DNA of 64,000 nt. Source: Mesorhizobium sp. (lineage in GTDB: Bacteria; Pseudomonadota; Alphaproteobacteria; Rhizobiales; Rhizobiaceae). The notes below the pieces were generated by a model. The model searched no databases, was not told the origin of the DNA, and saw nothing but the letters and a program-made list of their open reading frames with translations. Where the stretch lies: assembly GCF_017306545.1 (NCBI RefSeq), contig NZ_JAFKID010000007.1, positions 124,001 through 188,000 of the forward strand, given 5' to 3'. Positions 43,618 through 52,074 of this stretch are shown here, piece by piece (the stretch's first letter is position 1; every line of letters begins with the position of its first letter). The position numbers were made by a program, and so were the translations under genes.

Positions 43618-44292
43618 CTACGCGGGCTGCCTGACGGCCAGCCAGATCGTATGACGCACGCCGCGCTTGCCGTTGGCGCGGATTTTGACCTCTTCGACGG
43701 CGAAGCCCGTGCCGGCCAGCCGTCGGGTGAAGCCGGCGTCGGGAGCCGACGACCAGACCGCCAGCACGCCGCCCGGCTTGAGCGCCGCGCAGGCTTCGGC
43801 GAGGCCGCGATGGCCGTAGAGCGCGTCGTTGCCCTTGTGGACGATGCCTTCGGGGCCGTTGTCGACGTCGAGCAGGATGGCGTCGTAGACGCTTGCTTCC
43901 GAACGGATCAGCTTGCCGACGTCGATCTCGCGGAGGCGGACGCGGGGATCGTCCAGGCAGCCGTCGAAGACGGCGGCCATCGGGCCGCGCGCCCAGGCGA
44001 CGACGGCGGGAACGAGTTCCGCGACGACCACCGTTGCCTCGGCGCCGAGCGCGTTCAGCGCGGCGCGCAGCGTAAAGCCCATGCCCAGCCCGCCGATGAG
44101 GATTTTCGGCGCCTTGCGCTGGTCGATACGCTCGCAGCTCAGCGAGGCCAGCGCCTCCTCAGAGCCGGAGAGCCGGCTGTTCATCAGTTCGTTGGTGCCG
44201 AGCATGATCGAGAATTCGGCGCCGCGCTGTTTCAGGCGCAACTCGCCGCCGTCCGGCAGCGGCGCCCTGTCCAACTGGACCCAGGGAATCAC
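43618..44292 (-). CDS. spermidine-synthase-like methyltransferase-fold protein
   Basis: A 224-residue Rossmann protein. The nucleotide-binding motif ILIGGLGMGFTLRAAL, the acidic VVVAELVPAVVAWA and the segment AILLDVDNGPEGIV match spermidine-synthase homologues. The N-terminal tetramerisation domain of true polyamine synthases is very short here. The start is GTG at 44292 and overlaps the stop of the queuosine-precursor transporter (GTGA), so its translation is coupled to a gene with a preQ1-type leader. A polyamine role is not proven; it may be an unrelated transferase. Confidence 0.78.
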   Translation of the reverse strand: MIPWVQLDRAPLPDGGELRLKQRGAEFSIMLGTNELMNSRLSGSEEALASLSCERIDQRKAPKILIGGLGMGFTLRAALNALGAEATVVVAELVPAVVAWARGPMAAVFDGCLDDPRVRLREIDVGKLIRSEASVYDAILLDVDNGPEGIVHKGNDALYGHRGLAEACAALKPGGVLAVWSSAPDAGFTRRLAGTGFAVEEVKIRANGKRGVRHTIWLAVRQPA

Positions 44293-44969
44293 GCGGCGAC
44301 CGCCGGCTGCATCCAGCGGGCGGCGATCAGCCGGTAGGGGATCAGCGCGAAGACGGCGATCAGGAGCTTCACCGACATGTCGCCGAGCGCCCAGGAGAGC
44401 CAGCGCATCGCCTCGACGGGAAATAGGCCGAGCAGCGGTGCGGGCTCCAGCGCGAAGGCGTCGCTAGGGCCGATAAAGGCGAAGGCGGCAGAGAACGCGA
44501 CCGTGAAGAAGATCGCGGTGTCGAAGACGGAGCCGGCCAGCGTGCCGAAGATCGGCGCCCGCCACCAGCTTTGGCGTCTCAGCCAGTTGAACACCGTCAC
44601 GTCGAGCAGTTGCGCCGTCAGGAAAGCGGCACCGGAAGCGGCGGCGATGCGCACCAGCCGGTCGGCATGCGTCTCGAATTCGATCCAGCCGGCCCTGAAC
44701 AGCAGAGGCGGCGCGACGATTGACGTGACGACCGCCAGCATGAAGCCGACGAAGACGATCCTGCGCGCGACCGTCGGCCCGTAGCGGCGGTTGGCGAGGT
44801 CGGTGACGAGGAAGGCGAAGGGATAGGTGAAGGCGCCCCAGGTCAGGATATCGGCCAGGGCCAGGCCGCCGAGGCTGCCCTGCATGGGGAACTGCACGAG
44901 GATGTTGGAGGCGACGACGACGAGCGCCATGGCCGCCACGAAAGGCAGGTATCGGAACAGGAAATTCAT
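44289..44969 (-). CDS. queuosine-precursor (VUT family, YhhQ-like) transporter
   Basis: A 226-residue inner-membrane protein with about six helices. Family features are NILVQFPM near the N-terminus, LTWGAFTYPFAFLVTDLANRRYG, FLTAQLLDVTVFNWLRR, and GSVFDTAIFFTVAF. The family imports queuosine precursors such as preQ0, preQ1 or the nucleobase for tRNA modification. The ATG at 44969 sits at the end of a short preQ1-I-like leader, which supports this role. It shares a coupled start/stop with a spermidine-synthase-like gene. Confidence 0.88.
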   Translation of the reverse strand: MNFLFRYLPFVAAMALVVVASNILVQFPMQGSLGGLALADILTWGAFTYPFAFLVTDLANRRYGPTVARRIVFVGFMLAVVTSIVAPPLLFRAGWIEFETHADRLVRIAAASGAAFLTAQLLDVTVFNWLRRQSWWRAPIFGTLAGSVFDTAIFFTVAFSAAFAFIGPSDAFALEPAPLLGLFPVEAMRWLSWALGDMSVKLLIAVFALIPYRLIAARWMQPAVAA

Positions 44970-44995
44970 TTTTTTATCCTGGGTTATGGAACCAG
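44967..44995 (-). promoter_or_regulatory. preQ1-I-like riboswitch overlapping the transporter start codon
   Basis: Read 5'-3' on the minus strand: stem CTGG (44995-44992), loop TTC, CAT, AA, the candidate ligand-pairing C, stem CCAG, then GATAAAAAA and the ATG. This matches the preQ1-I order: a short P1, a loop starting UUC, AAC before the 3' strand, and an A-rich tail. CAT in the loop can pair with the start codon ATG to form the P2 pseudoknot, and AGGA seven bases before the ATG overlaps P1. Ligand binding would therefore hide both the ribosome-binding site and the start. Assigned by eye from the family consensus and the downstream gene. Confidence 0.68.
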
Positions 44996-44996
44996 T

Positions 44997-45022
44997 GGGA
45001 GCCTGCCGGTCAGGCCGCTCCC
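44997..45022 (-). terminator. hairpin between rpmB and the riboswitch
   Basis: GGGAG and CTCCC arms (44997-45001 and 45018-45022) with an inner CCTG/CAGG stem. There is no T-run, so termination after rpmB is plausible but not certain. It separates rpmB from the preQ1-type leader. Confidence 0.45.
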
Positions 45023-51872: not shown

Positions 51873-51897
51873 GCCCCATGGGGATTGCCCTCACGGT

Positions 51898-51949
51898 CCT
51901 TTAGCGACTTCTTTAACGTGGCTGCAAGCCGACCGGCAAATCACCACGA
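51898..51949 (-). promoter_or_regulatory. SAM-II riboswitch
   Basis: On the minus strand the segment reads TCGTGGTGATTTG, then CCGG..CGG, CTTGCAGCCACGTTAAA and ends GTCGCTAAAGG. These are the conserved blocks of the SAM-II aptamer, in the right order and spacing, directly upstream of metA as in other alphaproteobacteria. It binds S-adenosylmethionine and shuts metA. Confidence 0.93.
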
Positions 51950-52074
51950 CGTTCGAAACCGTATGTATGCCTGCTGCGCGGCGTCGTCAACGGCAAGGCG
52001 CTGGGCCAGCGGCCGGCTCTCGACAGCCGCGGTTCCGGCCTGTATTCCCGCTGGGGCTTTTACGGATTTCCGAC

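Follow-up and report, generated by a model that had tools for sequence, protein, structure and literature searches.

A conserved 29-nt element before a queuosine-precursor transporter gene of Mesorhizobium, very probably a preQ1 class I riboswitch with the start codon as pseudoknot strand

The queuosine-precursor transporter gene of a Mesorhizobium sp. (NCBI RefSeq assembly GCF_017306545.1) is preceded by a short conserved element that is very probably a preQ1 class I riboswitch, closest to type III, which switches translation off and in which the strand closing the pseudoknot is the start codon itself. The element lies in the window, by which we mean the whole stretch of 64,000 nucleotides analyzed (contig NZ_JAFKID010000007.1, positions 124,001 to 188,000), and runs on the minus strand from 44995 down to 44967 (CTGGTTCCATAACCCAGGATAAAAAAATG), its 3' end being the ATG of the transporter. 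Read 5' to 3' as RNA, its order is CUGG-UUC-CAU-AAC-CCAG-GAUAAAAAA-AUG (Table 1). The preQ1-I order named in the original prediction (CTGG/CCAG stem, UUC loop, AAC before the 3' stem strand, A-rich tail) is present in full on this strand, which the prediction had left unnamed; the AGGA that it placed partly in the first stem lies at 44980-44977, with its AG inside P1. The AUG at 44969 opens a 226-residue protein (44969-44289, minus strand) that matches Pfam PF02592 Vut_1 at 96.1 bits (cut-off 27.2) and the TIGR00697 queuosine precursor transporter profile at 102.1 bits (cut-off 50.95), which bears out the family assignment made earlier.

Table 1. Features of the predicted switch and its surroundings, in window coordinates
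Feature	Positions	Strand	Basis
Whole element (29 nt), with aptamer, ribosome binding site and start codon	44967..44995	-	Sequence, conservation, type III alignment
P1 5' strand CUGG, aptamer positions 2-5	44992..44995	-	Pairing comparison with type III-like leaders
L1 UUC, positions 6-8; UGG or UGC in other genera	44989..44991	-	Leader counts; U6 and U7 are the UU motif of type III (as described in PMC11625349)
P2 5' strand CAU, positions 9-11, complementary to the start codon	44986..44988	-	214/214 element-bearing leaders (fixed by the pattern)
L2 AAC, positions 12-14; C14 (44983), putative ligand-pairing cytosine	44983..44985	-	Alignment; role after PMC10622847
P1 3' strand CCAG, positions 15-18	44979..44982	-	Pairing comparison
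AGGA, putative Shine-Dalgarno sequence, its AG within P1	44977..44980	-	Sequence
L3 GAUAAAAAA; A at 44970, position 27	44970..44978	-	Alignment; A27 touches preQ1 in the E. coli structure (as described in PMC10622847)
P2 3' strand, start codon AUG, positions 28-30	44967..44969	-	Alignment, out-of-frame leaders
First letter of codon 2 (position 31), A in the window; no partner in UUC leaders, complement of position 8 in UGG and UGC leaders	44966	-	8/31 rule
Queuosine-precursor transporter (YhhQ/Vut_1 family), putative regulated gene	44289..44969	-	Pfam and TIGR profile matches
G+C-rich hairpin immediately 5' of the aptamer	44997..45022	-	Folding

Conservation was measured in two sets of leaders, those of the 143 transporter-bearing genomes among the 151 searched from the window's family and those of 80 further loci from named genomes, mostly Mesorhizobium. 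The block stands at the same place before the transporter in 134/143 family leaders and in all 80 further ones. Its pattern matched exactly once in 134 of the 151 family genomes and nowhere in 17, the element being absent from all 8 genomes that lack the transporter gene, and a reversed control pattern matched none; by genus, the element occurs in 98 of the 109 sampled. Mean information is 1.83 bits per position within the block (122 of the 134 leaders, with 29-base blocks), against 0.12 in the 40 bases before it and 0.29 in the 30 bases after it; the first figure is inflated, since the pattern used to select the rows itself dictates much of the block, yet only 9/143 leaders failed that pattern. 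Conservation of the element is far from chance, and comparison at the sequence level shows the element, its pairing scheme and its single-copy tie to the transporter. The nine failing leaders had no clear aptamer on inspection; one of them (L294, from a small genome) carries an apparent decayed copy, CTGGTTCCATTACCAAGATTAAGAATG, before the transporter.

Both pairings hold across the 214 element-bearing leaders, with the reservation that the search pattern contains them: CAT/ATG is kept in 134/134 family and 80/80 further leaders, and CTGG/CCAG in all but one, which has CCGG. Orthologues that break these pairs, which would have spoken against the original prediction, are in this sample limited to that single CCGG. 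The C preceding CCAG, likewise fixed by the pattern, is present in all 134 family leaders. L2 ends in AC before the P1 3' strand in 119 of them (AAC in the window), the others having ACC (8), CTC (5) or CACC (2), and L3 reads GATAAAAAA in 106/134. The AUG of the element is in frame with the transporter in 131/134 family leaders and 80/80 others.

Alphaproteobacteria at large were searched with the same AUG-type pattern, which occurred in 16 of 385 genomes including the window's own, and with the control pattern, which occurred in 4. The other 15 matches never combine CUGG with CCAG and were rejected as chance-like. At 29 transporter loci of other alphaproteobacterial families (L112-L140), visual inspection of the 70 bases preceding the aligned start revealed no AUG-type element. 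The leaders L112, L113 and L114 (alphaproteobacterial family f24) carry CAAG, U(C)GCCG, AC near CUUG, an A run, and CGG before the transporter homologue, and by their letters suggest a preQ1-I switch of a type II-like kind with CCG/CGG pairing; none of the three had an Rfam match at gathering, and L112 had no RF00522 match up to E 10.

Searching 398 Pseudomonadota genomes with a type III pattern gave 47 genomes with the pattern and 30 returned loci, of which 28 were retained; the two others (L241 and L242, in the window's family) were rejected as chance matches with a G+C-rich spacer and AAAAGG instead of AAAAAGG. All 28 lie outside the window's class, have AAAAAGG upstream of the start at a distance of 6-7 bases (3 at one locus), and precede a protein homologous to the window's transporter (28/28, BLASTP E 2e-21 or better). 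The window aptamer aligns to E. coli type III without gaps through the G5-C15 floor, U6, U7, C8, C9, position 10, U11, N12, A13 and C14, and the alignment continues through the A run with A27 to the P2 strand at positions 28-30 (E. coli 30-mer numbering). P2 of the E. coli aptamer is described as U11-A28, C10-G29 and C9-G30 (PMC10622847); the corresponding pairs in the window are U11-A28, A10-U29 and C9-G30, with AUG at 28-30. The sole loop mismatch to the crystallized aptamer is position 10, where C10, paired to the Shine-Dalgarno G29, is replaced by A10, paired to U29.

Class I features as described in PMC11625349, namely an H-type pseudoknot of P1 and P2, a conserved C before the P1 3' strand and an A-rich L3, are all found. 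Among the type III traits, a yhhQ-family transporter lies downstream, and UU follows the P1 5' strand in the window (UUC) and in 69/134 family leaders, not in the 65 with UGG or UGC. Where type III has a pyrimidine-rich loop, positions 6-12 read UUCCAUA, with A10 in all leaders and A12 here. The type III tail AAGG, whose Shine-Dalgarno bases pair in P2, is missing, the tail being AAUG with the start codon; because of this the element is called type III-like and not a member of type III. The label preQ1-I-like that the element had been given thus survives comparison, which places it closest to type III of class I, except at the AAGG tail. The Rfam covariance model went the other way: RF00522 (PreQ1) scored the element at 12.7 bits, below the gathering cut-off of 39, and the same model also missed 20/20 type III-like loci tried. 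Nor did any family of Rfam release 15 at gathering detect these 20 (of the 28) before yhhQ homologues, and across the whole window the only Rfam matches at gathering were one tRNA and SAM_alpha.

Pair changes between the two groups were scored in a gapless alignment of 30 columns (A2), made of 16 of the 26 distinct family cores and 5 of the 22 distinct type III-like cores, picked for equal length; an earlier alignment (A1) was discarded, its tails being misaligned owing to variable L3 lengths. In A2, 147/147 cells are paired and the covariation score was matched by 0/500 shuffles. Double changes occur in 3/7 pairs (2-18, 3-17 and 10-29), a count also reached in 174/500 shuffles, and are mostly one contrast between two groups, hence few events. 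In P1, U3-A17 of the family stands where type III-like leaders from other Pseudomonadota have G3-C17, and C2-G18 where most of them have U2-A18; by its letters, this P1 difference can also be read as the loss of one G-C pair from CUGGG/CCCAG. Together with the coupling of positions 8 and 31 described next, these are the compensatory changes that the original prediction proposed to look for. Within the family, P1 is nearly invariant and covaries nowhere save at a fifth pair in leaders without AGGA. The family-only pair test is weak, with 26 distinct cores and P1 and the other P2 pairs invariant: its score was reached by 10/500 shuffles and exceeded when partners were slid by +3 (0.036 vs 0.027).

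The base after AUG (position 31) follows the type of L1 without exception. Among the 134 family leaders, UGG goes with C in 53/53 and UGC with G in 12/12, and the 69 UUC loops never have G31 (31 A, 24 C, 14 U). The rule also holds with one genome per genus (37 UGG, 9 UGC and 51 UUC of 97) and in the 80 further loci (78 UUC without G31, 2 UGC with G31). On the best transporter tree (227 columns; 81 genomes out of the 134), the loop switches type 11 times, only 2 of these switches being forced by well-supported (starred) branches, and no row departs from the rule at position 31; this tree replaced a poorly resolved N-terminal one (64 columns, 140 rows, 15 loop-type changes). Two independent-pair tests with 2 pairs each on starred branches, too few for significance, had the traits changing together in 2.0 and 1.5, no difference in 0 and 0.5, and opposite changes in none. 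In the UGG and UGC types (65/134 family leaders), these letters indicate that the second helix can extend one base into codon 2, giving a four-pair P2. The window is of the UUC type, where positions 8 and 31 do not pair; C8 is free there, as in E. coli, which fits the C8-A28-U11 triple reported for E. coli type III (PMC10622847). G31 is absent from all UUC-type leaders seen (69 family and 78 further), as if the fourth P2 pair were selected against in this type.

A further set of leaders bears on the role of the AUG. In 11 of 394 family genomes, from four genera, C replaces the G after CCAG, so that AGGA is lost; each of these leaders shows a fifth P1 pair (GCUGG/CCAGC) and the tail AUGGA. The transporter is out of frame with the element AUG in 10/11 of these leaders, with CAU and AUG still present; the search pattern required both, and leaders lacking either would escape it. 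The first in-frame start codon of those 10 lies 4-16 bases downstream of the AUG (13-16 in 8/10). On the 81-genome tree, loss of the G after CCAG amounts to two changes. The start seems to have moved downstream in these lineages, and the GGA after AU may act there as the Shine-Dalgarno sequence, as AAGG does in other Pseudomonadota; this assumes that the start lies downstream, though some upstream frames are open. If that reading is right, pairing by itself is what keeps the AUG in these leaders, and the lineages would be a natural experiment in which the output of the switch was altered and the sensor kept.

An ordinary leader, in which CAU/AUG complementarity reflects coincidence or common descent, is highly improbable. 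In its favor are the near-invariance of any start codon, the kinship of the host genomes and the weak family-only pair test; such a leader is contradicted by the exceptionless 8/31 rule, the retention of out-of-frame AUGs and the unconserved flanks. The earlier proposal that the loop CAT complements the AUG and that P2 covers the initiation codon, fixed by the pattern in 214/214 leaders, gains independent support from the 8/31 coupling and the out-of-frame AUGs. CAU resembles the initiator anticodon. Mimicry of tRNA was considered and rejected, as position 12 varies, and the likeness is treated as a consequence of the pairing with AUG.

As a preQ1 switch, the element would work as follows. CUGG/CCAG would form P1; preQ1 would pair with C14 and stack on P1, the first pair of P2 (U11 and the A of AUG) serving as its cap, while the loop CAU paired with AUG as P2 and the A run of L3 lay in the P1 groove. 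The bound state would hide the start codon as well as the AG of AGGA; initiation would stop and import fall. Without ligand, the ribosome would open the weak four-pair hairpin (-3.4 kcal/mol), leaving AGGA and AUG free for the transporter to be made. The transporter would import preQ0 or preQ1, QueF would convert preQ0 to preQ1, and preQ1 would close the feedback loop. We infer the ligand, its binding and the switch direction of the window element by analogy; OFF and preQ1 are chosen because E. coli type III behaves so, binding preQ1 with a KD of 57.9 nM and repressing 6.1-fold as reported in PMC10622847. We further consider it likely that there is no separate expression platform: the initiation codon would be structural in the aptamer, its A the ceiling over the ligand, and the preceding base would touch the ligand; the UGG/UGC fold would be completed by a base of codon 2 as a distinct subtype with a four-pair P2; and the aptamer would have slid between Shine-Dalgarno and start-codon outputs, apparently back in four genera.

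Against this reading stand the 65/134 family leaders (the UGG and UGC types) that lack U7, and the replacement of the AAGG tail. In the E. coli structure, U7 is described as contacting A27 (PMC10622847). The loss of this contact, together with a genome with no strong QueC and no QueD, so that preQ0 may be the imported form, speaks for a variant in which pseudoknot and start-codon occlusion are unchanged but some other compound of the pathway is sensed (preQ0, queuine or a different deazaguanine), in the UGG/UGC types if not throughout. We regard this as unlikely: the UUC type of the window retains the bases of the E. coli ligand pocket (U6, U7, A13, C14, A27 and the floor G5-C15), and type III is reported to favor preQ1 over preQ0 (PMC10622847). 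Less likely still, and improbable on its own account, is a conserved protein operator or a merely structured ribosome binding site that takes no small-molecule ligand. It would suit an element that is short, single-copy and overlapping AGGA and AUG, and it has a precedent in the small alphaproteobacterial serC element, for which Corbino et al. 2005 found no ligand (in the account of PMC1273637), but it leaves unexplained the base-by-base match to an aptamer solved in complex with preQ1, before a homologous gene outside the window's class.

The preQ1 switch would suit the queuosine physiology of its bacterium. The genome (99.99% complete) contains Tgt and QueF; QueD had no match, and QueC had none at E 1e-20, three marginal matches occurring in longer frames (22.5 bits, and 22.2 and 27.5 bits with neighbors; cut-off 22), so that QueC is probably absent. 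This gene content makes the bacterium a probable queuosine-precursor salvager, one whose only source is probably the import of preQ0 or preQ1. In the related S. meliloti, 300 nM preQ1 added to the medium is reported to rescue queC and queF mutants (PMC3568095), which means that cells of this species take the compound up. In the family, QueC was found at E 1e-20 in 46/151 genomes, 6/8 of those without the transporter and 40/143 of those with it (Fisher p 0.010, kinship ignored). At this threshold QueC was not found in 105/151 family genomes, and salvage may be common in the family.

The element resembles E. coli yhhQ type III (PMC10622847; PDB 8fza per PMC11625349), as described there, in the nine-base loop UUCC-C/A-U-N-AC, GG/CC atop P1, the A run before P2, three Watson-Crick P2 pairs, the gapless 30-mer numbering and the transporter family. 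It differs in that its P2 3' strand is AAUG (start codon) where E. coli has AAGG (Shine-Dalgarno), with A10-U29 replacing C10-G29, and in that P1 lies on the Shine-Dalgarno sequence with zero spacer between aptamer and gene; at 29 nt it would also be smaller than the natural E. coli RNA, given as a 36-mer.

Like the element, the type II aptamer of Thermoanaerobacter tengcongensis (Tte) is an H-type pseudoknot with an A-rich L3 and with AC preceding the 3' strand of P1. A G-C-A run in the loop is common to Tte and the UGG-type relatives. Unlike the window element, Tte is described as hiding just the first two Shine-Dalgarno bases (PMC10622847, PMC11625349). Sequestration of start codons by other riboswitch helices is known, from the accounts in PMC5847336 (add) and PMC10907184; the add adenine riboswitch of Vibrio vulnificus sequesters its start codon in one state, but that AUG is described as held by a separate domain when ligand is absent, whereas the AUG of the window would belong to the ligand-bound aptamer. 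SAM-II (SAM_alpha) is likewise a compact alphaproteobacterial pseudoknot over the ribosome binding site, with another ligand and aptamer, and is described as covering the Shine-Dalgarno sequence, not the AUG (PMC9373788).

We take Brucella abortus to lie near the window's family. No preQ1 mark is given for it in a survey table of 2022 (PMC9495176), and the account of a 2005 screen of alphaproteobacterial leaders gives five other elements (PMC1273637). In different bacteria, yhhQ is described as lying under various preQ1 riboswitches (PMC5372724). PMC10622847 describes Shine-Dalgarno occlusion and does not contain the terms "start codon" or "AUG"; PMC11625349 describes the same occlusion and does not contain "start codon". 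The layout with the start codon was not found in the literature searched and appears, from its sequence, to be new as a type III-like variant of preQ1 class I. The type III model reportedly comes from McCown et al. 2014. The literature searched gave no rhizobial preQ1 switch, and rhizobial leaders could still figure in the lists of that work. The element may have been missed so far because Rfam release 15 misses the type III-like loci tried and because searches seek Shine-Dalgarno occlusion; switches in mRNAs without a Shine-Dalgarno sequence are named as hard to find in PMC11625349. If the reading is true, the start codon itself is a strand of a ligand-sensing fold, the element is among the smallest complete gene switches, and the first base of codon 2 joins the aptamer, a measurable constraint on protein N-termini.

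Folded without the pseudoknot, the single leader of the window is unremarkable (-3.4 kcal/mol, z -0.15, 85/200 shuffles equally good), and scanning for promoters and terminators found nothing. The QueF gene stood beside the transporter in none of the loci compared, most of which had flanks of 1-1.5 kb or less. Upstream of the transporter lies the gene for ribosomal protein L28, in the window and in 109/109 relative loci checked, and the hairpin 5' of the aptamer may serve to terminate L28 or to insulate. Its region has z -0.4 in the window (45 bases, 40 shuffles); relatives often carry a 5' hairpin of different sequence (mean z -1.84, z < -1 in 76/134, with 45 bases folded and 40 shuffles each). 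The SAM_alpha (SAM-II) riboswitch of the window lies at 51881-51957 on the minus strand and scores 69.1 bits.
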